Shown: positions 15,459 through 63,685 of the stretch, piece by piece
How positions within the stretch are numbered: position 1 is the first letter of the stretch
Layout of the letters: every line of letters begins with the position of its first letter
Assembly (NCBI GenBank): GCA_021292105.1
Contig: CM037865.1
Coordinates: forward strand, 65,655,630 to 65,719,629
Direction: 5' to 3'
DNA from: Anadara kagoshimensis
Taxonomy: Eukaryota; Mollusca; Bivalvia; Arcoida; Arcidae
Length of the DNA: 64,000 bases
Notes under the pieces: generated by a model
What the model saw: only the letters and a program-made list of their open reading frames with translations
The model's database searches: none
Told to the model about the DNA's origin: nothing
Translations under genes and position numbers: made by a program

Positions 15459-16490
15459 AGCTCACCTGACCGAAAGGTCATGTGAGCTTATGGCATAGCA
15501 CAGCGTGTGTGCTTCGTTAACACCTATTTTCGACATCTCCTCTGAAACTGCGTGACAGATTTCAATGAAACTTGGTGAGAAGTATATATGGGCCGGTGCA
15601 ATTCAGATTTGTTCGTGTCGTTGCCATGGCTACAATAACTAGGTCAAGGTGACCTAGGGGTGCAAAAATCTTCTCCGAAAGTATTGATTGGAGAAAAAAT
15701 CTGATGTGATATTTGGCTTCTCTAGGGTCTTAAGCCTATAGTTTGTTCATTTTGTAAAATTCGGACATAAAATGGGTTACATGTTTTTGCGTTTAATTTT
15801 GAACAAATCGTAAAATAGCTTCAAATTGTTATAACTTGACTATTTGACTAGATAATGACATGGGGTTTTCAGTTTGACATCTTGTTAGTATCCTTAAAAT
15901 GAGGTCAAGGTCAATTATAAAGGTCGTGACCTAATTTTTTTACCTCTGATTATAATTATTATTTGGAAAACCATAAACTTTTTGTATAGGCATGCATATT
16001 AGAATGTTGTAGGTATTGATGCAACAATCATTTTTAGGTATAGAAAAAGGTCATGGGTTCAAAGGTCACAGATGCAAAACAATACCGAAATGGTTAATTA
16101 TCTCGAAAACTATAAACTTTTTGTATAGGCATGTATATTAGAATGTTGTAGGTATTGATACAACGATCATTTTGATGTATAGAAAAAGGTCATGGGTTCA
16201 AAGGTCAAGGTCACATATGCGAAACAATACGGAAATGGTTTATTATCTTGAAAACTATAAACTTTTTGTATAGGCATGTATATTAGAATGTTGTAGGTAT
16301 TGATACAACGATCATTTTGATGTATAGAAAAAGGTCATGGGTTCAAAGGTCAAGGTCACAGATGCAAAGCAATAATGAAATGGTTAATTATCTTGAAAAC
16401 TTAACTTTTTGTATAGGCTTGTATATTAGAATGTTGTAGGTATTGATACAACGGTAATTATGATGTAAAGAAAATAGTCATTGGGGTTTC
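15459..16490 (+). mobile_element. Element with terminal hairpin and internal ~140-bp tandem array
   Basis: It starts with the imperfect hairpin AGCTCACCTGACC-GAAA-GGTCATGTGAGCT (15,459-15,488), a terminal motif common in bivalve repeats. Inside are about 3.5 tandem units. The marker ATAAACTTTTTGTATAGG lies at 15,973, 16,112, 16,257 and about 16,400, so units are 139-145 bp. Each unit carries 'AAAAAGGTCATGGGTTCAAA'. No coding sense was found. Confidence 0.75.
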
Positions 16491-17160
16491 AGTATTTATG
16501 TTACAAATCCGGTAGATATGAATTAGAATACCTGATGCTGAACAGGCATTCTGGTTATCTTGTCAAGCACCATAAGGATTGCAAAAAATATACTAAGATA
16601 CCAGCCATCGTCAAATCTATGATAGACAACAAACATAATGTTGTGTTTGGCATCAAGCAAACGGTATCTCAATAAACAAAATCTGTGCACTATTGCTTTG
16701 TGATTTGTTTCTTTATTGGAATGAAGCAGACCTTATGCAGAATCTGGAAGGAGTACATCTTTTAACTATAAATGTTAATCACCTTGCACATACCGGTTCA
16801 CTGTTTCCCAAAAAGCAACGTAAAAAGTTTGAACACAATCAGGTTTAATTGAACGCAAGATAGTAAGATGCTCAGATGAACAGATGCTCTGGTAATCATC
16901 TGTTTAGCTACCTACACCAGGCACGTGCAAAATCAAAATTTAGAATGAAAGGAACAATATCCAGGATAATTTTGGGTACGGAAACTTTATATGGATAAAC
17001 CATATTGTGATGATATATTGCCACATACAAAGGAAAGTTGATTATAGAGAAAATGACCACGTTCAAGCTTCAAATTTAGCCTTTCTCTGGGTGTGAAAAT
17101 TGTGTTTTGTTACAAATATTAAATGTGGCAGCTGTTTAGTTTGTGAAGGGTAGACGGATT
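16491..17160. other. No gene seen; one repeat fragment
   Basis: A piece of the dispersed repeat is seen at about 16,915-16,975 ('AGAATGAAAGGAACAATATC'). A 64-codon open frame at 16,481-16,675 has no recognised motif. Confidence 0.45.
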
Positions 17161-17179: not shown

Positions 17180-17330
17180 AACCGATTTAGCTAGACTAAA
17201 TTTGGTTTTATAATTTTGGTCTAAGCACCACTGATGGGGAGTTGTATTCCGAAACGGTCGTCTGGTGCTGTAAAATTAACACTGGTATAATATGTAACAA
17301 GGCTGGAGCCAAAATATGCCATGATATTTG
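17180..17330 (+). mobile_element. Hammerhead-repeat copy 1
   Basis: Shares 'AATTTGGTTTTATAATTTTG' upstream and an 'ACTGGTATAATATGTAA' downstream block with the copies near 18.3, 31.6, 41.7, 43.1 and 44.6 kb. It carries the ribozyme-like core at 17,224-17,269. Confidence 0.75.
17224..17269 (+). ncRNA. Hammerhead ribozyme (type I), copy 1, one core base changed
   Basis: Stem I AGCACCA pairs with TGGTGCT. The core reads CTGATGG (expected CTGATGA, so the conserved A9 is G), then a hairpin GGAGTTGTATTCC, GAAA, a short stem III CGGTCG, and TC before the predicted cut after 17,262. The A9 change makes self-cleavage unlikely. The C:G pair in stem I where copy 2 has T:A is a compensating change. Confidence 0.75.
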
Positions 17331-18234: not shown

Positions 18235-18700
18235 CTAATGTCAACTTCAATTTCCTTAACTGTTGGTAATATATTTTTTGGTCCTTTGTGTATATGTTCA
18301 ACATCTTGAAAAAAAATTTGGTTTCACAATTTTAGTCTAAGCACTACTGATGAGGAGTTGTATTCCGAAACGGCCGTCTAGTGCTGTATAATTAAAACTG
18401 GTATAATATATTGCTTAAACTACTGACCCGGTATCTCTGCTGTTGGATGTTTCCCCGTGCGTATCGCAAACTTAGTAGGCAATAATTGTGTATTATTTTC
18501 AGAACTATACTATTGTCTAAACTTGCTGCCAGTAAAAATCTTAACTACGATTCCTCAAAAACCAAGGTATACTCCTTCATGCAAAGTATTTCCTTAGCTA
18601 AATTTTGTAAAATATATTTTAGTCTTTTAAATATCTTTTCAACATCTTTGAGAAAAAAATAGTTTCACAGCACTGTGTACTGTGTCATATACCATTTTTT
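18235..18700 (+). mobile_element. Hammerhead-repeat copy 2, with a second partial unit downstream
   Basis: The block 'TTTGGTCCTTTGTGTATATG', 'TTCAACATCTTGAAAAAAAA', ribozyme, 'AAAACTGGTATAATAT' is followed at 18,500-18,660 by another upstream block ('TCCTCAAAAACCAAGGTATA', 'GCAAAGTATTTCCTTAGC'). The second block matches sequence preceding the ribozymes near 31.6 and 43.2 kb. It looks like overlapping or tandem units of one repeat family. Confidence 0.7.
18340..18385 (+). ncRNA. Hammerhead ribozyme (type I), copy 2, canonical core
   Basis: Stem I AGCACTA pairs perfectly with TAGTGCT (7 bp). The core CTGATGA is at 18,347-18,353. Stem II GGAGT..ATTCC has one G:T pair and a 3-base loop. GAAA is at 18,367-18,370. 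Stem III is the palindrome CGGCCG. The cut is predicted between 18,378 and 18,379 after GTC. All conserved core bases of the hammerhead are present. The very short stem III is as in retroelement-borne hammerheads thought to act best as dimers. Confidence 0.88.
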
Positions 18701-24828: not shown

Positions 24829-25110
24829 AGTCAAAAACAAACATACTCCATGTCCGAATCACAATTCAGAAGCAAAGTTAAAACTTTAGAACTGACAAGT
24901 TAGGTTAGACACGTGAACTTCCACCAGGAAAGTGAGACCGGGTGCTCCGTAAAGGTGAGCACCACCTGTTAAGCTTGCTACGCCACGTGTGTAATCAAAA
25001 TTTTGTGAAAGGAACATGAAACTATGAGACGTCAAATATATCCAGGACAATCCTGGACACTTGGACATCAAACGTATCAACCAACAATACGGTGATGGCG
25101 GCCATAAAAT
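24829..25110 (+). repeat. Dispersed repeat, forward, most of the element
   Basis: Starts at 'CAAAAACAAACATACTCCAT' and runs through 'GTGAACTTCCACCAGGAAAG' and 'TCCAGGACAATCCTGGACAC' to 'GATGGCGGCCATAAAATTTG'. Confidence 0.88.
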
Positions 25111-25582
25111 TTGTAACTAAATTATGTGTAGATCCTCCATCACAATTTTGCAATCGGTGCAAGATGATTTACAAGTGATCCATCGGGATTAAATTTAACT
25201 ACGAATCATTTGTTAAACATTTGTTAATCGATACAGCTGTGTATCAAATTAATCGAGTCATTTAAAAAAAAGTAAGATATCATCTATTAGGTTGTTAATA
25301 ATTAATGTTATGTGCAATAAAACAAACTGGTAAATCCTGATTTTTGTGAGATTGTTATGTCATCTTTTGATTTTTGCAGCGTAACAACTGAATAATACTA
25401 TTAAAATTCTGTTAAATCTTTGTTTTCATTATGGTTACTCGATGCGTCGTGTTTAAATAATGATCTCGACAGAACTGAATAACCCAAAAGGGAGTAATTT
25501 TAATTTCAAAATATTAATTTTTGATTACATTACATATTATGCAAGTATTAATTTTACAGCACTAGGACAGAACATTACGATT
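25111..25582. other. No gene seen; left flank of the Ngaro element
   Basis: AT-rich. An open frame at 25,460-25,687 crosses the left terminal repeat and is not a gene. Confidence 0.5.
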
Positions 25583-25701: not shown

Positions 25702-26487
25702 ATGGAAGAAAAGTTGGATAAATTATGCTCTTCTATGACGGATAGGCTCAATTCCATAGAGGCAAAAATTGAATTTATTTCGGAGGAAACAAACCGGAAT
25801 ACTCAAATTATCAAAGAAGTGCAATTTGAACGAAAAAGTTCAGATATCATCGAGGACATTCCTCCATTACACCACGTGGTGGCACCCAGTCCCACACAGT
25901 CGTGTGCCACTGGGATAAAACCGGATATCCAGGGCGAGTTTAATTCTTTAAAGGACTCATTAAGCAGAGTTAAATTGCCTAATGAACTAAAAATTAATGA
26001 CTCGCGTCAAGGAATCCAGCGCTCTGACCATGGACTATTAAACGTCATATCTAAATGTGGTCGTTTTGCCGAAACTTCGGTGAAATTATTAAGCACATTG
26101 GAACCTGGTGAAAAGGTTAGTCAAGAAACTTTAGAAAATTTATTTTTAATTAATCATGCACAAATCAAATATTTACAAGACGAATACGCGTCTATATTAG
26201 TGAACAGTCAGTTTGATCCAGCAACCTCGAAACTTTTTAGGTGTTTGCAGAGAAATACATCTGGGCTTAATACTGAATCGTTAGATACTCTGCGTACAGC
26301 GTCCGCTATCGCAGCAACAGCTAAGCCTCCACCCCAGCGTCAGTATCAGGGTCGGGGCCGAGCACGTGCTGGAAAGGACATTTTTTCAAATTTTTCACAT
26401 AGGGGATTTCCAAACCGTAGACCTTATAATATTAACAAACATACCGAGGGAGGAATAATTCCAACAGATACGAATAAAGATGACTAG
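25702..26487 (+). CDS. gag: Ngaro ORF1, gag-like protein (261 residues)
   Basis: First open frame of the element, starting 27 bases after A1. Residues 1-45 are charged with leucine/isoleucine spacing suggesting a coiled coil (MEEKLDKL, LNSIEAKIEFI). The middle is acidic/polar. The C-terminal part (about 205-245) is basic and RG-rich (QGRGRARAGK, RGFPNRRP), as in nucleic-acid-binding gag proteins of DIRS/Ngaro elements. No CCHC knuckle is present. It would package element RNA. The role is inferred from position and composition, since gag proteins of this group diverge fast. Confidence 0.8.
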   Translation: MEEKLDKLCSSMTDRLNSIEAKIEFISEETNRNTQIIKEVQFERKSSDIIEDIPPLHHVVAPSPTQSCATGIKPDIQGEFNSLKDSLSRVKLPNELKINDSRQGIQRSDHGLLNVISKCGRFAETSVKLLSTLEPGEKVSQETLENLFLINHAQIKYLQDEYASILVNSQFDPATSKLFRCLQRNTSGLNTESLDTLRTASAIAATAKPPPQRQYQGRGRARAGKDIFSNFSHRGFPNRRPYNINKHTEGGIIPTDTNKDD

Positions 26488-26575
26488 ATCTAATGATATT
26501 AATTATAACTGTTAGCATCCGTTTAATTGTGACATTATATATTTTACATGACTAACATATTAAAATGCTCTTGAA

Positions 26576-28235
26576 ATGTGTTTTGGATTTTCGAGTAAAC
26601 ATATTAAGTCCTGGGAATCGATATCGGCACCACGTCATGTGTTAGAGTGGTTGGAAAAAGGAGTCCCGATTCCATTTTGTAAGGAACCTAATTCATTTGA
26701 GTTGGAAAATCGCTCTACTACATTTAAGCAAACTGAATTTTTGAATAGTGAAATCAGTAGGTTGTATTCCATAGGATGTATTGAAAAGTGTATTGTTAAG
26801 CCTAAATGTGTAAGTCCTATTGGCTGTGTTCCAAAACGAAAAAACAAGTTTCGTCTTATTACGGATCTTAGAGTATTAAATTCTTATTGTGTTACTCCTA
26901 AATATAGGAATGAGGACATACGAGATGCTGCGGAAATATTAAAACCAGATGACCTTTTTGTGTCTATAGACATTAAAGATGGATTTTATCACATTCCCAT
27001 CGCGGAAAATTTTCGCGATTTTTTAGGGTTTCAATGGCGAAACACGTACTTCCGGTGGAAAGTACTTCCGTTTGGTCTTAGCTGTTCGCCCTTTTATTTC
27101 AATAAAACGTTGCGCCCTATTATAACATTCTTACGTGCTCAACATCTACGCGTCACGGTTTATGTGGACGATTTTTTACTGGCTGCTAACCTTTCGGATA
27201 TTACAGATTGTATCGATCAGTTAATTCATACCGTCGAGGATCTAGGTTTTCAGATAAATTACGAAAAGTCGCAGCTTGTGCCGTCCCCGAAAATTGACTT
27301 TATTGGATATACGATATCTAGTGTTAGTCGTAAGCTAACTATTAAGGTTCAACGTAAACGAGTTATTTTACTAAAACGTTGTATTGCGAAAGTGTTAGGC
27401 TCGGACCGCGTTTCCGCTCGTACGCTTTCTAAGGTAGCAGGTCAATGTGTGTCGGTAACGTGGGCGGTTTCCCCGGGTAAATTGTTACTGCGCGGGGTAT
27501 ATAGACTGTTAAATACTCGTACTAATTGGGAAAGTACATTACTTTTGACTGACGAAGTTACAAAGGAATTGAACTGGTGGTTACAGGCTATTGACCACTG
27601 GAACTACAGGGAAATATGCAACCGTCCGGTCGAGATTCAGGTTGTTACCGACGCGTCCCACCTTGGATGGGGGGCTGTTTGCAACGGGCAAATAGCATCG
27701 GGCGACTGGAATATTCGAATATCTCGCAAATCGTCAAATCATCGCGAATTAATGGCTATTTTGATGGCAATAAAAGCATTCATGCCTATTCTACGTCACA
27801 AGAGTATTCAAATACTTACAGACAATATTTCGGCGATGGCGTATATCAATCACAAAGGTGGTCCCTGCAAAGATCTATCACAGCTAGCTATTGCGATATG
27901 GTCGGAGGCTGTAGAAAATGGGATCTCGCTTCAGTGCGCTCATATATCTGGCAAGCAAAACACGAACGCGGACTTCTGGTCGAGACAACAGACAAACACA
28001 CTGGCAGTTACACCCTCGGTTGTTCGCGTATATCGACAAAATATGGGGTCCGCACACCATCGACCGATTTGCAAATTGTCAGAATACACAGCTGACAAGA
28101 TTCAACAGCCGCTACTGGGATCCGCTATCGGAAGGTATAGATGCACTCGCCCAAACCAACTGGGGACGAGAAAACAATTTTATCAATGCTCCTTTTTGTC
28201 TACTTCCACGGGTTTTGGAAAACGTGAGAGAGTGA
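26576..28235 (+). CDS. RT: Ngaro reverse transcriptase - RNase H (one frameshift)
   Basis: The RT core lies at residues about 85-205: LITDLRVLN, FVSIDIKDGFYHIP and LPFGLSCSPF, with catalytic YVDD at residues 196-199. RNase H follows: TDAS (Asp 359), NHRELMA (Glu 391) and LTDN (Asp 416), so its catalytic acids are present. Past ADFWSR (about 27,985) the frame used to 28,252 loses likeness to the family. The +1 frame instead reads WQLHPRLFAYIDKIWGPHT, DRFAN, RFNSRYWDP and FCLLPRVL up to a stop at 28,233-28,235, the conserved tail of DIRS/Ngaro RT-RH proteins. A single extra base near 27,998 therefore breaks it. It could be mutation or sequencing error; a programmed shift is less likely. Confidence 0.9.
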
Positions 28236-29309
28236 GTGGAGCAAAACTTTAGATAACCATCGTTGGTCTGAGCGCGCCATAAAACGTTTTTCGTCGTCTT
28301 TGGCCTCTAGTACCTTACGGTCCTATAACAACGCAATACTTAAATTATCCAAATTTTGTTCTCGTAATAATTGCGAATTTCCACCTAGGTGTTCTGCAGA
28401 CCTGGCTAACTTTTTATGTGACATTGCTGAAGGTTCTTGTAGACCTAGTTCAGTTTTACACACCACGTCAGCGGCTATTGGCCATTTATATAATGCTAAA
28501 GAAATGGTTAACTTAATGGAGACTGATTTAATCCAAAGGTTAATAACAGCTTTAATAAAATCGGGACTTCAGCACCTATGGCTCGATCTAAAGTGATGCC
28601 AATCAAAAACTTTTATGATCTTTTCCACAACTGGCCTGAAAATTCAGAGTTGGACACTAAACGTTTAAGACTTAAGGCCGTTACTTTGTTATCTTTAACT
28701 GTAATGATAAGACCATCTGATGTGGCTCCTAAAGCCATGTTATATAATAGTTTACTTAATGTTAATGAAAAGGTGTGTTTTTGTGTTAATCAACTAGGGT
28801 TCGATAGTGACAGTTTGAAAATAACGTTTTTCGGGATAAAAAATGACACTAAGCGGTCGGGCTTCGAGATAGTATTGCCGAAAAGTAACCAGCACAAAAT
28901 TGACCCAGTTTCCACGTTATATGACTATGTTAAAAGAACAGAACCTCAGAGGCAGGTTAATGGACCCGTTTTTCTAACTTTAAGAGAACCATTTAAGGCT
29001 CTCGAAGCTTCGTCGATTGCCAAAATATTAGAAAGTTCTATTCAGTTGGCTGGCCTATCCGATCAAGGTTTTACTGCTAAGTCATTTCGGCCCACAGGGG
29101 CTACTGTAGCAATAGAACAGAATATTAACCCAGACATAGTTAGAAAGGTCGGTCGTTGGAAAAATTCAGATGTGTTTTATGCACATTATGTGCATTCTAG
29201 GACTCCGAGTTGTTTTACGGATAATATTCTTAATTTTAAGTGGCTTTATTTTCATGTTTTTATCTCATTATCTTGGCAATTAGTTAATGTTTATTTTTAT
29301 ATATGTTAA
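28228..29309 (+). CDS. YR: Ngaro tyrosine recombinase (one frameshift)
   Basis: Open from 28,228, overlapping the end of the RT tail. The first part reads SSTLRSYNNAILKLSKFC (N-terminal SAM-like DNA-binding region). The frame breaks at the GGG run 28,563-28,565, where a fourth G would restore KSG-T-SAPMARSKVMP, and continues in another frame to 29,309. The catalytic half has LLSLTVMIRPSDVAPKA (first Arg), FRPTGATVAIE (second Arg), VRKVGRWKNSDVF and AHYVH with the Tyr at about 29,187. The enzyme would join the circular cDNA to the genome in place of an integrase. The product end overlaps B1. As written it cannot make full-length protein without a frame change. Confidence 0.88.
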
Positions 29310-31440: not shown

Positions 31441-31745
31441 TTGCCCTGAGGATATGGGATATCACAAACTAAGTAGGCAATTATTGTGTATTATTGTCAG
31501 AAATATACTATTGTCTAAATTTGCTGCTAGTTAAAATTTTAAATTCCTCAAAAACCAAGACATTCTCTCTTATGCAAAGTATTTTCTTTGCTAAATGTGG
31601 TTCGTTGGGTATCTTTTCTCCGAAAAAAAATTTGGTTTCATTCACTACTGATGAGGAATTGGTATTCCAGTGCTGTAAAATTAAAACTGGTAAAATATGT
31701 AATTTTGTTCCACACAGTACTGTACCTTATAATGTTGCATTGCGG
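31440..31745 (+). mobile_element. Hammerhead-repeat copy 5, ribozyme deleted
   Basis: Matches the 18.4-18.7 kb copy from 'AACTAAGTAGGCAATTATTG' through 'TTCCTCAAAAACCAAG'. It then has CACTACTGATGAGGAATTGGTATTCC joined directly to AGTGCTGTAAAA (31,643-31,680). The GAAA and stem III part is missing, so the ribozyme is broken. Confidence 0.8.
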
Positions 31746-39100: not shown

Positions 39101-42100
39101 CCGTGTCCATAAAGATTATTTTTGCAAAGGCTTCACATATACGGCGGAATATTTTGCTGGTGTTACACATACTATTTTTTAGTTAGGTGGTTTCGAAAAT
39201 ATTCTTCCCCTGCATGATGATGTGACTGGTCCTTTGTTTTTGGTTCATTAGTTCGGCAGTAGAACTTAAAGGCTTTTTCAGTGAAAAACATGAACTATCC
39301 TGTCAACTGACTTCTTCCATTTACAGGGTCTTTACTTTTTACTCATTTTGATGTTTATCAACCAATTTTTGATTCACTTTCGTTAACAAATAAAACTCTT
39401 TACAAGGTTTATAATTGGCACTAGAATCCAACCTATACTAAAATGCATTACAATTATATATGACGATGTGGAAGAAGCAGTTCGCTCCTCATTAATATTC
39501 ATATCTTTTTTTTTTTTGGTCACGTGACTGCGAAGTTTTGTTCCCAGGAAGATATGAAAAACTAGAAGTATTGCCAAATTTAACTTAGTTCGACAGTCTT
39601 GTCCCTTCTTTGATCCCCCTATTCAATTGATAACCGGTGTCCTTATGAATGTTGCGTGAATGAATGAGTTTATTTTATTCCGACAGTTTTGAATGTGGTT
39701 TTCTTTATCCCCCAAAGTTTCAAAATTCTTCACTTTTTCGATTTTTGTTATTTTTGATATTAAAAGGAACCCTTAAATTGAAAGCTAGAATGAAAAAGTT
39801 GGCATGTGACGGATAAAATTTACCAGGTCTCCATGACCAAAGCGGACAATCGATCGGGATCATGTGATTTTGGTTTGAAAAATAGAACCAAAGTTAGCAG
39901 AATTTGCAATTTTGTCAAAACTGAGTATCTGTTACATAGCTATACATGTATATAGAACGGCGTCGCTTCGTTAATTGAAAGTTTAAAGGAACCTTAAAAA
40001 TTAAAGATATTTTAATGAAAACAAGATCATGGTTTTTGTACCGGTGTAGGGTTAAATAAAATAGCAGACATTTGTTCCGCCACTTGGTGCAAGTTCTGTA
40101 TGGCGCCAAATTTAAATTATTTACTATAACGAGTCATTGAGAAAAATAGCAAATCATCATCAAATATGGCGGATATGCAAATTGGATAAGTGAACTCTTT
40201 CTCCGGTATGGTTACGATATATATACGGTTGTTTGGCAATCATCGGTAGAATAGAGACAAATAGCTAAAGACGCTTTTAAGTTCAGCTGGCAAAACCAAA
40301 ATGAGTTTAAAAATGGTGAAAGAAGTGTCTTTCCTACTGTAAACGTTTAACATTTTCAGTCTTTAATCAAAAACAAACATACTAATCCATGTCCGAATCA
40401 TAATCCAAAGTAAAAACTTTGGAACTAGCAAGTTAGGTTAGACACGTGAACTTCCACCAGTGAAGTGAGGCCGGGTGCTCCGGAAGGGTAAGCAAATTTG
40501 CTCTCGATAGACTGGGTAAGATTTTAGATTGTATCTGGCATGTCTGCTCAAAATCCAAGGTGACCGCCGTTACCATAAACAGCCAACAAAAAAGTCAAAA
40601 CCTTATTAATGACCCGATTTTGTTGAAATTTTAAACATAAAAATATCACGGGCTTTTCGGTAAAAAAATAGTTTGCGTAATATTGACACAATATGCCAAT
40701 AAGGCGTATTTTAGTATTAACCTCTGCATGTACTTGGTCAATTCAAACGTAATTGTTATGAAAGGTCCTTTGGTGAATAGATAATATATTGTAACTGCCA
40801 CGCATGTCCGAAATCTAAGATGGCCGTTGTCACCATTACTAACATAAACCTGCATTTAGGAGATTTTGTTGAAATTTTGGAAGATATTAATGACAAATGC
40901 ATGAAGATCATGGCTTTAAAGATCTAAAGCGATGATTTATCTTTTGTGCTCTGTTTTTGCTACTGTTTCATCCCTTTATAAATGTACTGTATATAGACCT
41001 TCAAAAGGAAATTTTTAATCTGGACTTTTGCTGAAGAATGTTTTGATGGCCATTGAAAATTTACAGGGGATATGGAGTATTTCTTCAGGGGGGAGATATG
41101 GCTCATGGGCCTCTTGTAAAATAGTAATAATGAATAATCAAGCAAGATATATTCCGATTAAATCACAAATAAGATACAAATCAGCGGTAGGATTAAATAT
41201 GTCAAATGTCATCAACTATACATTCTTTTTTCATTAAACGTAAAATTGAAAACAAATCATTGTTTAATAAGTCAATATTATCAGATAATTATTGTTGAAG
41301 TGAGACCTAGTGCTCCGGAAGGGTAAGCACCTCATTTTTAGTTAGCTACATGCATCATATGTGAAATGGGTCCTTCGAATGAGACCTTAAAGAGCGATGT
41401 TCCGTGTTCTGGTAGGTATGAGACGCTGATATTTCCATGCATATTACCTTGAGCGCACTGGAAAGCATTAAATATTCTGCCACTTAACTTGTAGCGTCTT
41501 GATTAAATTGAAATATTCTTAACTGGAACATTAAACCCCATTTGATCAATCATTAATCGCTTGTGATCGTTCCAGTTGTTAGTAACTATAGAAATCTTCC
41601 GATAGAATCTTGTTGTTCCAGTAATGTTAATATTGCAAACATAAGGAATTACACGTTATACCAGTTTTAATATTACAACACAAGACGGTCGTTTCGGAAT
41701 ACATTTCCTCATCATTAGTGTTTGAAACAAAATTTTTAAGATGTTGAAAAGAAACCCAAAGAAACAAAAGATATTTTACCTAATTTTGTTAAGGAAATAA
41801 TTTAGTAAAATATAAAGAGGGTCTGATAAACCTGATTGCTGTCTGTATATAGAACAATAAATAAAATTGTCTGAAATTTTCTAATTTTACTTCATATGTT
41901 TACAATTGAATTGTTTTTCTCTCAGAAAATTGGATTCGTCGCTGTACCACGTGATACCCTCTAACGTTTGTGCGGAACAATGGATATGGAATAACATAAG
42001 TCGACGTTTTCCCGCGAAAACGAAGTCATTCCGGGAATCTGTGACGTTGAGATTTTCCAAAACGTTGCGCATAAAACGTTTAGAGGTATTGATTATGTGG

Positions 42101-43531
42101 TACAGCGGCGAACCCCATAATCAAAATAAAACCTTAGTAATAAATAAATACATAGGGACATATGCATAAGAAAAGAAAACAATATAAGCATATTACATAC
42201 AATTTAGTTAATGTAAAAGCCGGGAGTTACATTATGATCTAAATTCGTTGAGAATATCTGATACACATTAACGATTGTTCATTTGATTTCGATAAGACGA
42301 TATCAGATCAAATCATTATGAACTTAATGCAATTTATATCTTTCATCTCATCTTGGAAATGTCCACATCAATATTCGAATAGTGACATCTGGCTTTAGAT
42401 ATGGTCATTGCGATAACACTGATGATGAACTGTCGCCAGAATTAATATTAAGAGATACAGAATGAATATGAAAATTTCCCAAATAAATCTATATTTTGCT
42501 TTTAGAAATATCATAAACCTTAATGTTATGTGTTAATTTATTAATTGAAAACAAACATACTAATTCATGTCCTAATCACAATCCAGCAGCAAAGTAAAAA
42601 CTTTGGAACCGACAAGTCAGGTTAGACACGTGAACTTCCACCAGTGAAGGCCGGGTGCTCCGTTAGGGTAAACACCTTCTGTTTAGCTAGCTACACCCGC
42701 CACGCGTGTAATCAAAATTGTGTGAAAGGAACATGGAACTATGGGACGTTCAATATATCCAGGGCAATACTGGACACAAAAAAAAAACAAAAAAACAAAC
42801 AAACTTATCAACCATATTGTGAAGATGACCATAAAACGTTTTGAGAGGCTTGATAAGCCTAGGCTTGCAATATACCAGAGTCAAAAATTTATCTACAAGC
42901 AGCTTGCTGCGTTATACAAAGTGTAATTATCTAATTATTGTTTTTAATTGTCTAATTATTATTTTTAACAAAATAAGTATTCAAAAATTAGAAAATGACA
43001 GTTTACAAGAAAACCAGTTTGCAAGCGACCTTAATAACATATCAAGTTTCTCCCTATTAATAATAAATTTGTGGGTTTTTTTTACCAATTACATCATTGT
43101 ATCAGTTGAATTTTACAGCACTATACGGCCGTTTCGGAATTTAATTCCTCATCAGTAGTGCTTGGACAAAAATTATGAAACAAAAATTGTTTTCAAGATT
43201 TTGAAAAGATACTCAAAGGACCAAAATATATTTTACCAAATTTTTCTAAGGAAATACTTTGCATGAGGAAGTATACCTTAGTTTTTGAGGAATGTTAAAT
43301 TTTAACTAGCAGCTTTTAACTACCAATCCATTGTCACATTTGAAAACATGTTTATATTTTTAATTTATATAATATTCTATAGGACTTTAAAAAATATACG
43401 GAAATGAAAATGATAAGACTAAAAAAATTATAAGATTACCTTATGTACGCATCGTCATTAGAGTCGCATCGTATCTGGTGGGATAGAAGGCACATCAAAG
43501 TGAACCACATTGTGTAAGAATTCCTGTTCAT
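33129..43531 (-). CDS. Small secreted peptide with EF-hand-like loop (two exons, inferred)
   Basis: Exon 1 is 43,531-43,440 and exon 2 is 33,288-33,129, both on the minus strand, with an intron of about 10.15 kb. Exon 1 starts MNRNSY, has a hydrophobic stretch (TMWFTLMCLLS) and ends IRCDSNDDAYI plus two bases at AAG|GTAATC. Exon 2 begins after TTTACATTTTAG and supplies exactly the one base needed. The joined frame runs 83 residues to TAA. The C-terminal half reads RHARSSMIMHEIKR then ICDKDGNRILDEDEEADCF and KSMASFMFG. D-x-D-x-N...E resembles a calcium-binding EF loop held between two cysteines. A final Gly or single basic sites might suit a processed peptide. I do not recognise the family. 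The exon join is inferred and further exons inside the intron are possible. Confidence 0.55.
34050..34280 (+). repeat. Dispersed repeat copy, diverged
   Basis: Blocks 'AGTCCGGGTGCTCCAGATGG', 'TGTGTAATCAAA' and 'GAATGAAAGGAACACGGAAC' of the ~430-bp family. Confidence 0.75.
34997..35955 (+). pseudogene. Broken pogo-superfamily-like DDE transposase, N-terminal two-thirds
   Basis: Starts MNTPSIYKFFKK. A basic segment (GKKRKRYGDYS) and a helix-turn-helix region (ARYALENGNTAAARHFSKEL, then STVRSIKSSYE) follow, then a linker LPRGRPLKLGE. The frame slips by one base at about 35,485 and continues LVEYGENISLAKAW, ILRRLNMIKRKGTK and NWDQTG, the first catalytic Asp motif. It then meets an in-frame TAA at 35,757-35,759 (AK-stop-VPI, most simply CAA to TAA). 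It resumes DKRQMTVLVGCTKSGELLPP and QGKTDVCHP up to SMSRYV, where a (CA)n tract ends the likeness. The rest of the catalytic domain is absent. Inactive. Confidence 0.78.
35974..36017. repeat. (CA)n microsatellite
   Basis: About 22 CA units with one interruption (CACAACACAC). It marks the truncation point of the transposase remnant. Confidence 0.95.
36030..37430. other. No gene seen
   Basis: AT-rich sequence within the inferred minus-strand intron. No repeats recognised. Confidence 0.5.
37437..37608. repeat. Tandem duplication of 86 bp
   Basis: 37,437-37,522 and 37,523-37,608 are identical as read (CACGCTTACAATCCGATTTA at the start). Confidence 0.95.
38440..38770. repeat. Three diverged tandem units of about 123-135 bp
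   Basis: The marker CTAATGG(T/C)GG recurs at 38,494, 38,617 and 38,752, each preceded by 'CACTCCTTTA'-like sequence and followed by a 'TGTTACATGT'-like block. Confidence 0.8.
38880..40360. other. No gene seen
   Basis: AT-rich. Nothing recognised on either strand. Confidence 0.45.
40367..40500 (+). repeat. 5' part of the dispersed repeat
   Basis: 'AAACATACTAATCCATGTCC' to 'GTGCTCCGGAAGGGTAAGCA'. The copy ends there. Confidence 0.88.
40501..41295. other. No gene seen
   Basis: Two similar phrases ('CTCAAAATCCAAGGTGACCG' at 40,545 and 'CGAAATCTAAGATGGCCGTT' at 40,810) hint at an old repeat. Nothing coding was found. Confidence 0.4.
41296..41556 (+). repeat. Dispersed-repeat fragment followed by a molluscan-type SINE tail
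   Basis: 'AGTGCTCCGGAAGGGTAAGC' at 41,310, then 'GGTCCTTCGAATGAGACCTT' and the SINE end 'GAAATATTCTTAACTGGAAC' with CAATCATT. Confidence 0.65.
41650..41890 (-). mobile_element. Hammerhead-repeat copy 3
   Basis: On the minus strand the copy runs from 'CTTAACAAAATTAGGTAAAA' through 'TTTCTTTTCAACATCTTAAA' and the ribozyme to 'TTAAAACTGGTATAACG'. Confidence 0.75.
41677..41722 (-). ncRNA. Hammerhead ribozyme, copy 3, degenerate core
   Basis: The minus strand reads AACACTA, ATGATGA (the first core C is A), GGAAATGTATTCC, GAAA, CGACCG, TC, TTGTGTT. Stem I has one mismatch. The core change predicts loss of activity. Confidence 0.65.
42546..42928 (+). repeat. Dispersed repeat, nearly full length
   Basis: Runs from 'AAAACAAACATACTAATTCA' through 'GGTTAGACACGTGAACTTCC', 'CCAGGGCAATACTGGACAC' and an A-rich insertion, to 'CTTGATAAGCCTAGGCTTGC' and 'TTATACAAAGTG'. 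Confidence 0.9.
43060..43330 (-). mobile_element. Hammerhead-repeat copy 4
   Basis: The minus strand runs 'CTGCTAGTTAAAATTTAACA', 'TTCCTCAAAAACTAAGGTAT', 'GCAAAGTATTTCCTTAG' and 'TTTGAGTATCTTTTCAAAAT', then the ribozyme. This matches the 18.5-kb and 31.5-kb copies. Confidence 0.8.
43117..43162 (-). ncRNA. Hammerhead ribozyme (type I), copy 4, canonical core
   Basis: The minus strand reads AGCACTA (stem I), CTGATGA, GGAAT-TAA-ATTCC (5-bp stem II), GAAA, CGGCCG (stem III), TA, then TAGTGCT closing stem I. The cut is predicted after GTA. Every conserved base is present, all stems pair perfectly, and stem II is stronger than in copy 2. It lies in the inferred intron of the minus-strand peptide gene and on its sense strand. 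Confidence 0.9.
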
Positions 43532-45731: not shown

Positions 45732-48700
45732 AAATACTGGTACCCGGATGTACGCCAACTCCTTCTTGGTGGGGCATTTAAAAATTTGTTCAATTGGTAA
45801 TTTTTCTTTTTAAAAATGTCATTTTACAAAAACAAAAAATAACTTTGGGATCAAGTCAGCTTTTGCAAATTCATATATCTTAATCGGTATATAATAAATG
45901 TAACTAGCTATGTGCGATGCTATTTGTTATAATAAATCAAATTTAGCTTAGAAATATAAATCTTCTATATTTCAAAACATGTTACAGAACAATAGGATAC
46001 AGTAATATTTAGTACCATATATCGTAATATACAATCTGCATGATTATGAAATTGCCCGTTAAATATTATTATTACTATCATTATATGTTTTATATGTAGT
46101 ATTATTATAAGGTGGTATTTTAATGCTGACACAGTTATTTTGCAAAGATGACACACCGAAGTCAAATAACTGGGTTAACATGAAATTACCAGATCAATGA
46201 CTATTTTATTAATTAACATTTCAAATGTTCAACATCAAAAAATTAAGGCATACTTGTCTACCTATCCCATAATTTCCTGTTCCTTTCATTTCAATTTTGG
46301 TTTCATGTGCTGGGGGTTAGCTAACTAAACAGGAGTTGCATATTATCTGGTGACATTTACCGCCCTCTGTTGTGAATGCAAATCAATATAGATCTTTAAA
46401 ACGGTAGATTTATTAATTTTTTAAAACAAATGTTCAAATTGTGATAATTGACCTTTAATGATATAATATTAAACTAGTTATTTTGTTATTTTTACGATTC
46501 ATTGTAAAGATTAAAGTGTTAGTTTATATATAGACCTTCGTCAGTGCATAAGTTATCCGCACTTTCAGCCTAAACGCTTGTGGATATTGAGCTGAGGTTT
46601 GGAATTTTAGTGAACCACAATGAGTTGCAGATCAAATTTAGATGCTTTACAGGTAAAATAGTAAAACCTTAAATTGAAATCTCACGAATGATAACACACT
46701 TCTTTTGCCCCTTCGAGATGAGAAAATCTAAGATAAGAAATTTCGGTGGACAAGGCCATTGAGGAGACGTTCAGGTTACAAGTGCGGGGATAGAAATTTA
46801 TGTTATAGTCGATACTAAGGTATGTCGATGGTGTTGAAACTGAACGCTATATTTTTGTTGTTCATATGTTTGTTGTAGACGATCCTAAAACTTTGATATT
46901 AGGGCATAGTTGTTAGTAGATCCTATGCGAGACAAAATATAATTATTTGTTATAGATATAGTTTCTGATAAGTAATAGTATTTGTGTATTAGAAATCTCT
47001 TATAAACGTGCTCTATCGCATATAAGGTAATTATTTTGTGATTTTGGTCAAGTGCCTAAAGTCCGTTTACAACAAAATCCTCTCAAGATGTCCATAATCG
47101 GAATTCCTAATATGTGTTTATCTTAACAATAACGGTTTTACTATCTCTGGACATCTCTAGAATAAAGCATTCGGCTATTGTAATGTACACAAAAAACCAA
47201 AGATATATACAAAAATTGATCCGGCCGCCGTTTCTAATTAAATGTACTTTACTTTGCCTCATCCCATTCCATTCAGTATTTGTGTCTTACGTGGGATATT
47301 GGTTTTATTGTTATCATTTTATTTTCGGAAATTTACAAAAATTATAACCATCAAGATATACATGTCACTTGGTCGTATCTAACCATTGCTAGCGTATGTG
47401 TAGCCTGAACTGCAGTAACAAGTTGTTTATATGTGGTGGACAAATGTATTTATTATTATTTAATTGTTTAGCTAAAACTATAACCCAGCAAGCAACGCCA
47501 TGGACGTCTTTGTCTCGTCGTATGGTTTAATTCATAAATAAAAATTATGTTTCACAGTTAATCAGTATTGGATTCTTATCATGTTCAAACATCACTAAAG
47601 TGTGCCATAAAGCTGAGAACTTGCTGTTCAGATCGCATCAGAATGCACAATCCATCATTATATATCTATGTAGAAGAAATATTCCGGGAGTGCATGCCTC
47701 GGATCCCCATTAGGTTATTCACAATGTCTCTCCTTAAACATTAAATGTGCGCTACGACCCTGGGTGGACAGTGAAAAAAGCTAATCTCGCACTGTGATTG
47801 ATAACAAAGGATCGTCACCTATAATGTGTATTAGAAAATTGCCGTACCGATATTTCTAGAAATAAAATCATCTTGATCTTTTGATGGAAGAGACAATCGT
47901 GATGTCAACAGACACAAACCCACCAGTTCTATTTTCTTGTCACTATGGCTGACAAAGTGCTTAGCTAAAACGTACGCATTATATGCATCACCTGTAGAGA
48001 ACATTACATCGGACAAACTGGCAATAGTCTAAACGAACGTGCCATTAGCAAATAAAAATACTGGTACCCGGATGTACGTCAGATCCTTCTTGGTGGGGCA
48101 TTTAAAATTTTGTTCAATTGGTAATTTTTTTTAAAAATGTCATTTTACAAATACAAAAAAATAACTTTGGGATCAAGTCAGCTTTTGCAAATTCATATAT
48201 CTTCATCGTTATATAATAAATGTAACTATGTGCGATGCTATTTGTTAAAATGAATCAAATTTAGCTTAGAAATATAAATCTTCTATATTTCAAAACATGT
48301 TACAGAACAATAGGATACAGTAATATTTAGTACCATATATCGTAATATACAATCTGCATAATTATGAAATTGCCCGTTAAATATTATTATTACTATCATT
48401 ATATGTTTTATATGTAGTATTAATATTAAGGTGGTATTTTGATGCTGACACAGTTATTTTGCAAAGATGACACACCGAAGTCAAATAACTGGGACAACAT
48501 GAAATTACCAGATCAATGACTATTTTATTAATTAACATTTCAAATGTTCAACATCAAAAAAATTTAGGCATACTTGTCTACCTATCCCATAATTTCCTGT
48601 TCCTTTCATTTCAATTTTGGTTTCATGTGCTGGGGGTTAGCTAACTAAACAGGAGTTGCATATTATCTGGTGACATTTACCGCCCTCTGTTGTGAATGCA

Positions 48701-50275
48701 AATCAATATAGATCTTTAAAACGGTAGATTTATTAATTTTTTAAAACAAATGTTCAAATTGTGATAATTGACCTTTAATGATATAATATTAAACTAGTTA
48801 TTTAAAAAAATTGGAAATTGTTATTTTTACGATTCATTGTAAAGATTAAAGTGTTAGTTATTATATAGACCTTCGTCAGTGCATAAGTTATCCGCACTTT
48901 CAGCCTAAACGCTTGTGGATATTGAGCTGAGGTTTGGAATTTGAGTGAACCACAATGAGTTGCAGATCAAATTTAGATGCTTTACAGGTAAAATAGTAAA
49001 ACCTTAAATTGAAATCTCACGAATGATAACACACTTCTTTTGCCCCGTCAAGATGAGAAAATCTAAGATAAGAAATATCGGTGGACAAGGCCATTGAGGA
49101 GACGTTCAGGTTACAAGTGCGGGGTTAGAAATTTATGTTATAGTCCATACTAAGGTATGTCGATGGAAGGTGTTGAAACTGAACGCTATATTTTTGTTGT
49201 TCGTATGTTTGTTGTAGACGATCCTAAAACTTTGACATTAGGGCATAGTTGTTAGTAGATCCTATGCGAGACAAAATATAATTATTTGTTATAGATATAG
49301 TTTCTGATAAGTAATAGTATTTGTGTATTAGAAATCTCTTATAAACGTGCTCTATCGCATATTAGGTAATTATTTTGTGATTTTGTCAAGTGCCTAAAGT
49401 CCGTTTACAACAAAATCCTCTCAAGATGTCCATAATCGGAATTTCTAATATGTGTTTATCTTAATAATAACGGTTTTACTATCTCGACATCTCTAGAATA
49501 AAGCATTCGGCTATTGTAATGTACACAAAAACCCAAGATATATACAAAAATTGACCCGGCCGCCGTTTCTAAGTAATTGTACTTTACTTTGCCTCATCCC
49601 ATTCCATTCAGTATTTTTGTCGTACGTGGGATATTGGTTTTATTGTTATCATTTTATTTTCGGAAATTTACAAAAATTATATCCCATCAGGATGTACATG
49701 TTACTTGGTCGTAGCGTATGTGTAGCCTGAACTGCAGTAACAAGTTGTCTATATGTGGTGGAAAATGCATTTATTATTATTTAATTGTTTAGCTAACACT
49801 ATAGCCATGGGCGTTTTGTCTCTTCGTATGGTTTAATTCATAAATAAAAATTATGTTTCAAAGTTAATCAGTATTGAATTCTTATCATGTTCAAACATCA
49901 CTAAAGTGTGCCATAAAGCTGAGAACTTGCTGTTCAGATCGCATCAGAATGCACAATCAATCATTATATATCTATGTAGAAGAAATATTCCGTGAGTGCA
50001 TGCCTCGGATCCCATTAGGTTATTCACAAAATCTCTCCCTAAACATTAAATGTGCGCTACGACCCTGGGAGGACAGTGTAAAAAAGCTTATGTGTCACTG
50101 TGATTAATAACAAAGGATCATCACCTATAATTTGTATTAGAAAATTGCTGTACCGATATTTCTTGAAATAAAATCATCTTGTTCTTTTGATGGAAGAGAC
50201 AATCGTGATGTCAACAGACACAAACCCACCAGTTCTTTTTTCTTGTCACTATGGCTGACAAAGTGCTTAGCTAAA
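45645..50275. repeat. Tandem duplication, two units of about 2.3 kb
   Basis: Unit 1 is 45,645-47,968 (2,324 bp) and unit 2 is 47,969-50,275 (2,307 bp). Both start AACGTACGCATTATATGCAT inside the GIY-YIG remnant and end ACAAAGTGCTTAGCTAAA. Differences are scattered substitutions and small indels, so it is a fairly recent direct duplication. Each unit also holds a fragment of the dispersed repeat in reverse (about 46,275-46,345 and 48,603-48,655). Confidence 0.95.
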
Positions 50276-57331: not shown

Positions 57332-59297
57332 AAAACATACCAATCAATGTCCAAACCACAATCCAAAGGCATAGTATAAAAATTGAAACTGTCAAATTTA
57401 AACATGTACTTCCACCAGTGAAGTGAGGTCAGGTGCTTTAAAAGGGTAAGCACCTCATTTTTAGCTATTTACACCCGCAACATGTGTAGTCAAAATTAGG
57501 AATGAAAGGACCCCGCATTTATTAGACGTCAAATATATCAAAGGTAAATCGAGACACAGACATCATACTAGACATTATTATACCTCACATATATTAAAAC
57601 ACTTTTCATTGGATGTTTTCCAATCACATGACATGTAATAAATGACATATTTCCCACAGAATCACTGTCAGCGTGTGATAACCTCTCACAGCCATGTGAT
57701 AACCTCTCACAGCCATGTGATAATACTATTATCACCCGGTGATGACCCGGTACAAGGGAAACAACTCGTACAACAGAACTGTGTTGTCATTTGGTAAACA
57801 ATAATAATGGCGGCCAGTCGTTTTTTTGAAGTTCGTCGGAAGCGGACTTGTTATTAATTATGTATGACAAAGATGCAGAAAAAACACAAAAAAGGTCACC
57901 CAAGCTTCAGTGGAAATACTGGAAATGTATTTGATGGAAACGAAAAGAGAGGTAAACCTAGATTCTGCGGAATATAAAGTATGAGCCCCCCCCCACCCCC
58001 CCCCTCCGGGATTGTTGAAAGTGTAAACTGGCAGCATTGAATTTAATTTAAAATTTAGACATTGTTTGCGTCAATTTACATGGTAAGTTTTGTTTCGGTA
58101 TAATAAAATAATAATTGCCCTCTAGGTATGTGGACATCCAGAATTGTCACCCTTCAGAAGGGTTTTTACCCTCGGGCGATGCCCTCGGGTGACAACCCGT
58201 CTGTCGGGTGACAATTCTGGATGTCCACATACCTAGAGGGCAATTATTGTATATTATATATACAAGATGTTTTGATGGGGGCCATTGAAAAGTTTTGAGG
58301 GTCTTAATAAGCCCTAGAACTGCTATATCTAATAGTCAACAATTTATTTTAAGAAGCTTGATTCATTGTATAGAGTTCCTATAGTATATGTTCATGTAAT
58401 ATGCTGTGTTTTGTCGCTGTACATTTTAGCCTTTAAAACTATATAAACTATTCGTAGAATGACTGGAATTTAATATATTGACAAGAGATTAGGTTCACAT
58501 TGAACGTTGTATTATTAAGAAAAAAGTCCTAAATGACAGATGATTTGGAAAAAATAATTAAATGTTTCTTTCATCAAAATAATATTCTTTGTGTAACGAA
58601 TATTATCATTGCCTAGAATTAATAAAATATTTTATTTTATATACAGGAAGTTTACTACCAGACAAATGTCACGGAAAGGTATGTCAACTTTTAATTTACT
58701 CGTTTAAAAACGTCGAAATATTTTCTAGGCTTGACATTAAAATTAATATTGCAGTCGACAGGAATAGTTTGTTGTTACGCTTTACACATATGTAAATGAA
58801 TTATTATTTTTTGATAATAACAATGATGAGTTTATTTAAAATATTGGTATAATATCGCAAAAACATTCTTAGTTCCTAAAGTTTGTTTGCCTTTAGCATG
58901 CAACGTTTTATTAATAACAAACAATCCATTTTACATTTTACATATGTAAAACTGATGAAAACCCTACTACCTAACAAGTACAAAAGTGTTGAAATTAAGG
59001 GATTACAGTCTCTTAACACTATGTAGAAAACGAAACATTTAAACACTTTTTTATTTTGCGTTATAAATTAGCACGTTCTCAATACTTGCCTATCGGCGAC
59101 TATGTATGTGCGTTTCAAGTCATCGTTAATTAGTATTTATAAAAATGATTTTTTTTGTAAAGCACTTAACATCTATGTATTGCTTTCAGTTGCTCAGATG
59201 GCTATTTTTGGTCACTTTGATATTGATAAACGCAAGTGCACTAAGTCTTAACAATCTAGACTTCCCTTTGGCTATGTCTGTTAAGAATTATAAATAA
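55086..59297 (+). CDS. Secreted WAP (four-disulfide core) domain protein, 114 residues, four exons
   Basis: Exons 55,086-55,146, 56,555-56,698, 58,647-58,678 and 59,190-59,297. All borders are AG/GT, phases fit, and the total is 345 bases ending TAA. Exon 1 is a signal peptide (MKLEVCIFVILSVIAVVYC). Exon 2 carries one complete WAP domain with all eight cysteines, including CFGDSSCPDGQKCCRHTCG. Exon 3 is a linker (GSLLPDKCHGK). Exon 4 starts LLRWLFLVTLILINASA, a hydrophobic stretch near the C-terminus that might anchor the protein or be a GPI-type signal. WAP proteins are protease inhibitors, antimicrobials or shell-matrix proteins; which applies is unknown. Exon 2 is strong, exon 1 good, exons 3-4 inferred from frame and splice sites. 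A poly(A) signal AATAAA lies at 59,433-59,438. Confidence 0.75.
55508..55553 (-). repeat. Duplicated exon-like segment, copy 2
   Basis: Identical to 54,729-54,774, with the same AG...GT borders. In this copy an upstream open frame reads MAMEIVVFAVLTF then SVQTNWKVLNDLRVLQ, signal-peptide-like. It is antisense to intron 1 of the WAP gene. Confidence 0.55.
55806..56234 (-). repeat. Dispersed repeat, full-length reference copy (about 429 bp)
   Basis: On the minus strand it starts 'AAAAACAAACATACTTATCC' and ends around 'TGGGAAACAAATACACC'. In between are 'GTGAACTTCCACCAGGGAAG', 'AGGGTAAGCACCTCCTGTTT', 'CAATCCTGGACACAGAGACA' and 'TTGATAAGCCTAGGCTTGCA'. No terminal inverted repeats, tRNA boxes or coding were recognised. 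It lies in WAP intron 1. Confidence 0.9.
56235..56400 (-). repeat. Second, diverged partial copy of the dispersed repeat
   Basis: Directly adjoins the full copy in the same orientation: 'AGCTAACTAAACAGGTGATG', 'CTCACGTCCCTGTTTTCACG', 'GGACATGGATTGTTGTGTTT'. Confidence 0.75.
57294..57580 (+). repeat. Poly(A) run followed by a dispersed repeat copy
   Basis: An A run of about 37 bases is joined to 'CAAAACATACCAATCAATGT', then 'GTACTTCCACCAGTGAAGTG' and 'AGGAATGAAAGGACCCCGCA'. Confidence 0.85.
57673..57735. repeat. Short tandem repeat, about 2.5 copies of 24 bp
   Basis: GTGATAACCTCTCACAGCCAT occurs in tandem, running into 'GTGATAATACTATTATCACC', which folds on itself. Confidence 0.85.
57807..57979 (+). 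pseudogene. Crypton-like element first-exon remnant
   Basis: Starts MAASRFFEV. After small frame changes it reads EADLLLIMYDKDAEKTQK, then VTQASVEILEMYLMETKREV and NLDSAEYK. This 'MAASRF...S/E-x-L...K-D-x-x-N/K-T-x-K' start resembles N-termini of Crypton-like recombinase proteins in bivalves, the same broad group as the minus-strand remnant at 53 kb. It is decayed and lies in WAP intron 2. Confidence 0.5.
58110..58248. mobile_element. 139-bp foldback with perfect 43-bp arms
   Basis: Arms 58,110-58,152 and 58,206-58,248 are exact reverse complements (inner part GGTATGTGGACATCCAGAAT). The 53-base centre has further CCCTCGGG repeats. It lies 0.1-0.5 kb after the Crypton-like remnant, whose 5' side also carries 'TATCACCCGGTGATGACCCGG', so both may be ends of one element. 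It is inside WAP intron 2. Confidence 0.9.
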
Positions 59298-63368: not shown

Positions 63369-63685
63369 TCAAAAACAAACATACTAATCCATTTCCGAAC
63401 CACAATTCAGAAGCAAGGTGAAAACTTTGGAATTGACAATCCAAGTTCGTCTAGCGAACTTCCCCCAGGAAAGTGAGACCGGGTGCTCAGGAAGAGTAAG
63501 CACCCCCTTTTCACTTAGCTACACCCGCCACGTGTGTAATAAAAACTGAGTGAAAGGAACATGGAACTATGGGATGTTAAATATTTCCAGGGCAATCCTG
63601 GACACAGAGACATCAAACTTATCTACAATACTGTGATGATGACCATAAAACTATTTGATGACCTTGATAAGTCTAGGCTACGAAC
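63369..63685 (+). repeat. Dispersed repeat, most of the element
   Basis: 'CAAAAACAAACATACTAATC', 'ACCGGGTGCTCAGGAAGAGT', 'GAAAGGAACATGGAACTATG', 'CAGGGCAATCCTGGACACAG'. Confidence 0.9.

Follow-up and report, generated by a model that had tools for sequence, protein, structure and literature searches.

The window analysed here (64,000 nt of contig CM037865.1 of the ark clam Anadara kagoshimensis) carries on its plus strand, at 18340..18385, a hammerhead ribozyme motif of 46 nt that lies in a dispersed repeat of the retrozyme kind. Every part of the ribozyme is found in the sequence: stem I pairs AGCACTA (18340-18346) with TAGTGCT (18379-18385) over 7 bp; the core box CTGATGA (18347-18353) is followed by the stem II hairpin (18354..18366), in which GGAGT (18354-18358) and ATTCC (18362-18366) form 5 bp, one of them G-U, around a TGT loop; GAA occupies 18367-18369, and the 8-nt palindrome ACGGCCGT at 18370..18377 can build the 8 bp of stem III only between two copies (duplex energy -14.1 kcal/mol). 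Cleavage is predicted after C18378 (18378..18379), a placement that follows the established NUH rule. When the single strand 18325-18412 or a young copy is folded to its minimum free energy (MFE), stem I continues past an internal loop into an outer helix, TTTTAGT (18330-18336) with ATTAAAA (18391-18397), which extends the structure to 18330..18397. The features of a type I hammerhead are thus present: CUGANGA, GAA(A) and NUH are surrounded by three helices, of which stem I is the open one. Canonical forms have a tertiary contact between loops 1 and 2; here stem I has an internal loop and stem II a UGU triloop.

The motif is not a chance occurrence. A descriptor that demands stem I of at least 6 bp, CTGANGA, stem II of at least 4 bp, GAAA, a stem III that is either a palindrome or a hairpin of at least 3 bp, and NUH has two matches in the window, namely the motif and a minus-strand copy of the same repeat near 43.1 kb; it has none in 400 dinucleotide shuffles, both strands included. 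We rejected the loose core pattern without stems as proof of the motif, since its two matches in the window are close to the 1.25 expected by chance. Judged from its sequence, the motif is a complete type I-like hammerhead, and the first-pass annotation placed it, and its cut at 18378/18379, correctly. That annotation also gave stem III as CGGCCG: the stem is indeed palindromic, but CGGCCG is only the inner 6 nt of the 8-nt ACGGCCGT. The word 'canonical' was likewise too strong for an otherwise complete hammerhead, given the triloop on stem II and a monomer that does not fold as a hammerhead at its energy minimum. For the single 46-nt motif that minimum (-13.1 kcal/mol) is another fold, and the hammerhead fold reaches only -7.8 kcal/mol. 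When two copies are cofolded, the minimum (-34.5 kcal/mol) matches the double hammerhead exactly, its stem III formed by 8 bp between the two molecules; this holds for the window copy and a young copy alike and supports the earlier idea that the ribozyme would act as a dimer.

The surrounding copy is a relic of ~1.2 units on the plus strand (18250..18667), in which unit positions 208-339 (18250-18378) are followed by 1-287 (18379-18667) and the canonical 3' end is gone; the two parts are, respectively, 87% and 79% identical to a young unit. It contains one ribozyme, and a circle needs two cuts, so this locus alone cannot yield a circle; the annotation's expectation of a circular RNA with its junction at 18378/18379 is not supported for this copy, the second cut being missing and the copy decayed. 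By its sequence, the window copy appears to be an old, decayed retrozyme insertion that alone could cut its transcript at most once.

The repeat unit and the ends of its insertions

That the repeat is dispersed is borne out within the window, where 134 nt match 43106-43239 at 87% and more pieces occur, and in the genome (1.115 Gb in 36 contigs). For a 121-nt query, 40 of 3546 first-look candidates were scored and gave 40 matches; two further repeat queries, with 40 candidates scored out of 3378 and 2317, returned 43 and 40 matches, respectively. The repeat occurs both as tandem arrays, with 6.7-6.8 copies of a 339-nt unit in loci L009 and L010, and as truncated single copies. The unit has a GC content of 34.5%, and the longest ATG frame on its circular form spans 25 codons on the plus strand and 22 on the minus strand. 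The array anatomy contains no long terminal repeats (LTRs). Of the two homes that the annotation had suggested, a Penelope-like element (PLE) falls away, since the window repeat has no frame, and a metazoan retrozyme is upheld by the non-coding 339-nt tandem units. With a hammerhead in tandem repeats within the range of about 150-450 bp, GC below 50%, no coding frame and many dispersed copies, this element belongs to a known kind, the metazoan non-LTR retrozymes. A highly self-paired circle, which is a typical but not a defining retrozyme trait, is not found for the 339-nt unit. We conclude that the motif is probably the hammerhead of such a non-coding retrozyme, the copies of which arose by reverse transcription.

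The evidence for reverse transcription lies in the insertion ends. These were counted at 18 loci out of 20 that were fetched from among the best genome matches of the 121-nt query; L018 (a duplicate of L017) and L023 (mutated core, missed by the orientation step) were left out. In all 18 young insertions the 3' end falls 34-38 nt past the ribozyme cut (retrozyme tail, TGGTATAATATGTAA); the 5' starts are scattered over unit positions 36-247. Insertions measure 0.37-6.75 units (one unit or less in ten of them), and every one has the ribozyme region near its 3' end. A 3' end shared at unrelated sites and combined with variable 5' ends argues for reverse transcription; the variable 5' ends also led us to drop a Helitron-type insertion. 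Had the RNA been cut at GUC and then reverse-transcribed from its 3' end, the insertions would stop at GUC. Every one of the 18 extends beyond that point, which means that the template, either a circle or an uncut multimer, spanned the cut.

The target sites add further detail. No flanking duplication of at least 7 bp was seen at any of the 18 loci; retrozyme target duplications, when present, are expected to exceed 4 bp, and the longest flanking direct repeat is 6 bp (L026). The insertion at L012 sits in a dispersed repeat, the empty form of which (CCTAAC^TTGTCAG) is present many times and limits the duplication to 0-2 bp; a similar comparison for L014, in a diverged 143-bp repeat, was too poor to use. 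In 14 of the 18 insertions GTAA is followed by T (p 1.5e-4 against a frequency of 0.335, in a test picked after viewing the data), and the printed junctions contain no poly-A or microsatellite tail. Diverged copies were aligned as well, 43 in number (five lie in the window, and some duplicate one another): 36 of the alignments stop at unit 35-47, and the other seven, including the 18.3-kb copy, reach the limit of the reference stretch. Identity in these copies is even across ribozyme and tail (unit 300-339 and 1-40), at 91-95%, whereas unit 250-299, just upstream of the ribozyme, is only 47-78% identical.

The arrays were compared through the full units of L009, L010 and L013 (six, six and five, respectively). 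Mean divergence within an array is 0.2% in L009, 2.3% in L010 and 1.8% in L013, from which L009 would be a young array. Among 39 columns that vary within arrays, 36 hold a change in a single unit; nine further columns are fixed differences between arrays. Each array therefore looks, from its sequence, as if a single sequence had given rise to it at one stroke; had units been duplicated stepwise or exchanged, more differences shared between units would be expected. This homogeneity favours a circle as the template.

As compared by description, the closest known systems share much of this anatomy. The retrozyme of the mussel Mytilus galloprovincialis, likewise from a bivalve, comprises ~350-390 bp repeats and ~5000 hammerheads, and its circular RNA is seen on northern blots of tissues (PMC7229834); the ark clam element has a 339-nt unit, 3546 first-look candidates and a loopless 8-nt palindrome as stem III, and its insertions stop 34-38 nt beyond the cut and lack long target duplications. 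Hammerhead repeats of newt and axolotl (PMC7229834) resemble it in unit size (330-350 bp) and in a weak helix III with a palindromic loop, which cuts better as a dimer; they come from another host phylum, and the ark clam palindrome is 8 nt long. Minimal hammerheads of PLEs, too, have a weak or palindromic stem III and are thought to act as dimers (PMC7761336); PLEs carry a reverse transcriptase and GIY-YIG frame, whereas the ark clam retrozyme, with its longest ATG frame of 25 codons, has neither. Among the matches listed in our literature search, none dealt with a hammerhead repeat in Arcidae, and no title concerned a fixed 3' end of retrozyme insertions.

Penelope-like elements of the same genome

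From a GIY-YIG search of the ark clam genome, 150 of 248 candidates were scored, which yielded 50 matches at E 1e-3 or better; of three long frames that were tested, two held a reverse transcriptase with GIY-YIG and one GIY-YIG alone. We scanned the 50 GIY-YIG loci, each with ~1.2-1.5 kb downstream, for hammerheads with a palindromic stem III and a stem I of at least 5 bp. A hammerhead-like motif was found in 30 (29 without L033, which has a retrozyme copy in its flank). The other 20 had none under this rule; seven of them (L034-L037, L045, L050, L051) carry a hammerhead that departs from it by one change or by a stem I of fewer base pairs. The stem III palindromes differ by family (AGCGCT, AGTACT, AGCT, and ACATGT in L034-L036). 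Rfam lists no hammerhead in the four PLE loci L031, L032, L034 and L047, so that the PLE hammerheads are identified by pattern and pairing alone.

The PLE insertions end tens of nt past the cut. Ends at ~33-53 nt occur in seven of nine rows of family A, one of five of B and three of six of C; the remaining rows of these families and all three of D end at ~65-100 nt, these counts having been read by eye from rows that are not all independent and with ends blurred by TA repeats. In an anole PLE, reverse transcription begins at internal sites, which are also where the genomic copies stop, leaving an optional tail of 30-40 bp; in vitro this PLE uses uncleaved RNA, the hammerhead being dispensable for insertion (PMC11167929). 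By analogy, the retrozyme 3' end at 34-38 nt follows the logic of this anole PLE, and a similar end rule would tie the retrozyme to the PLEs of its own genome. The words 'retrozyme' and 'circular' do not occur in PMC11167929.

We rejected family E as the particular partner: its tail match, the best of the six PLE families tested, is weak, since 52 of 2000 shuffles reach the same score, and nearly all matched copies run past the place in question. Retrozyme pieces lie beside PLE genes in L033, L044 and L047; such pieces are common, with six in the 64-kb window, and for this reason we did not take adjacency as a link. TA repeats adjoin the ends of many copies in PLE families A, B and C (L031, L032, L047 and relatives), and some PLE matches form close pairs on opposite strands (L035/L036, L038/L039, L055/L056). 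In families D and E another frame lies 3' of the GIY-YIG frame (L035 734-1471, minus strand; L121 292-903, plus strand), with a C2H2 zinc finger match in L121 and a similar look, by eye, in L035.

Routes by which the copies may have arisen

That animal retrozymes move via RNA circles, with PLEs as a strong enzyme candidate, has already been proposed (PMC7229834); the part of that article consulted makes no mention of an end past the cut. Our observations (a fixed 3' end, a variable 5' end, arrays of one sequence each, and PLEs with a similar motif) suggest a specific version of it, in which template and enzyme are taken together and which we offer tentatively, at slightly less than even chances: reverse transcription by a PLE enzyme, which would use internal starts on its own RNA as well, would begin within a closed circle of RNA, at a point 34-38 nt beyond the ligated cut, and run for several rounds. 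Tandem copies would be transcribed; two successive hammerheads would pair through the palindrome ACGGCCGU, as in the computed fold, and should cut after GUC; a host ligase, as published work on other retrozymes suggests, might then close the 339-nt monomer to a circle; and, at a T-rich target, a PLE-type reverse transcriptase would begin to copy this circle 34-38 nt beyond the former cut and may pass around it repeatedly. If this were true, retrozymes would be parasites of PLEs that mimic the recognition site of hammerhead plus tail, and insertion ends alone would suffice to score animal genomes for circle-templated retrotransposition. The anatomy of the clam insertions offers a test by counting: only a template that runs across the cut can leave an end beyond it.

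The nearest rival differs from the circle in its template alone: an uncut multimeric transcript of a genomic array would cross the cut site just as well, and the anole PLE's use of uncleaved RNA in vitro, with its hammerhead dispensable, lends this reading some credit (PMC11167929). An older array copied in this way would pass on its unit-to-unit differences, and yet each array consists of one sequence with star-like changes (the 36 of 39 columns above); a very young source such as L009, at 0.2%, escapes this argument, and we regard the uncut multimer as rather unlikely but the most serious of the alternatives. The choice of enzyme can be questioned too. A fixed 3' end, variable 5' ends and a T-rich target are also known from LINE-type insertion (LINE, long interspersed nuclear element), and the retrozyme insertions fit it as well in these respects; a LINE-type reverse transcriptase might thus move the retrozyme, as it moves SINEs (short interspersed nuclear elements). 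Against such a mover stand the lack of poly-A or microsatellite tails in the junctions, the 18 of 18 loci without a target duplication of at least 7 bp and the 0-2 bp at the empty site of L012, and we consider it improbable. It is harder still to do without an RNA stage. Satellite DNA with a fossil ribozyme, spread by unequal exchange or DNA circles, would account for 339-nt tandem arrays, for their homogeneity and for a window copy that is itself a relic, but not for the same 3' end with variable 5' ends at 18 of 18 unrelated sites, nor for the ten of 18 copies of one unit or less; we give this reading very little credence.

Several results weigh against the retrozyme, circle and PLE interpretation preferred here. 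The covariance search that the first-pass annotation had proposed as a check was not passed: the Rfam scan of the window found no family at its gathering score, and a relaxed scan (E<=5) of the whole window listed no hammerhead. RF00163 reached 21.1 bits against a gathering score of 34 (E 0.0038), and this only when 121 bases were searched. The genome-wide search with RF00163 gave no match, with 73 of 112716 candidates scored and none of 14 control genomes positive, so that absence is not proven, and the array loci L009, L013 and L098 yielded no hammerhead either. We treated the curated score as a practical test and not as a defining trait of type I hammerheads; as it was never reached in window, genome or array loci, we rejected Rfam as proof of the motif and base the hammerhead on its anatomy, its dimer folding and its copies. 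As the motif illustrates, the Rfam cut-off can miss hammerheads of this kind. The circular 339-nt RNA is no more stable than its shuffles (z -1.2; 25 of 200 as low), and we discarded extra stability as an argument. Short target duplications, up to 6 bp, may be present. Three of the 39 variable columns, all in L013, hold shared changes, and unit-to-unit exchange could also homogenise arrays. Conservation is patchy, since unit 140-149, 160-169 and 230-249 are also 94-98% identical in the diverged copies. Among the PLE families compared, no tail clearly resembles the retrozyme's. Compensatory changes in stem I are few, and the best of them lies in a copy with a mutated core: in the copy at 17.2 kb, C-G replaces T-A, with a U-G intermediate in L097 and L098, and in that at 41.7 kb A-T replaces G-C, beside a T-T mismatch and a changed core. 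These changes are suggestive of pairing, and only that.

Further copies and other elements in the window

Five other pieces of the repeat lie in the window. The plus-strand copy at 17197..17297 is 5'-truncated and keeps the canonical 3' end; its core is altered to CTGATGG, and the palindrome of its stem III is lost. On the minus strand, the diverged copy at 43096..43313 has a complete hammerhead with the cut site GTA and stem II as GGAAT-TAA-ATTCC, and alignment places another at 41656..41803, with its core changed to ATGATGA. Also from alignment, the diverged plus-strand copy at 31460..31698 has lost the GAAA/stem III part of its hammerhead, and a 32-nt fragment of the repeat tail lies at 25534..25565 on the minus strand. 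Elsewhere in the genome, retrozyme pieces form adjacent inverted pairs (L022 1760-2133; G000:C3:67395930-67396128).

The dispersed repeat that received the L012 insertion is abundant, and in the window it occurs at 24844-25085, 42545-42802, 63369-63630 and other places. By our reading, a DIRS-like retroelement occupies 25702-29309 on the plus strand, with a reverse transcriptase and RNase H at 26576-28252 and a tyrosine-recombinase match at 28578-29309 that, at 24.8 bits, is just below the Pfam cut-off of 27.1. On a chromosome-sized contig outside the window, COI regions occur at three places within 50 kb (L099, L100, L101; G000:C4:4487676-4537603), that of L099 being open under code 5 (invertebrate mitochondrial); they are either a large transfer of mitochondrial DNA into the nucleus or an artefact of assembly. 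Translated with that code, a COI copy on this contig is 90% identical to an unnamed protein, 87% to Tegillarca granosa, 81% to Barbatia decussata and at most 64% to the rest of the 120 matches listed out of 7998, which places the host among the Arcidae. In the window, a long hairpin at 58114-58244 scores 45-47 bits to two microRNA families on both strands, under the gathering scores. Two tandem structures complete the inventory: four copies, of uneven identity, of a ~143 bp unit at 15923-16494, and a tandem duplication at 45905-50275 with a period of ~2.3 kb, the pieces of which are 94-100% identical.
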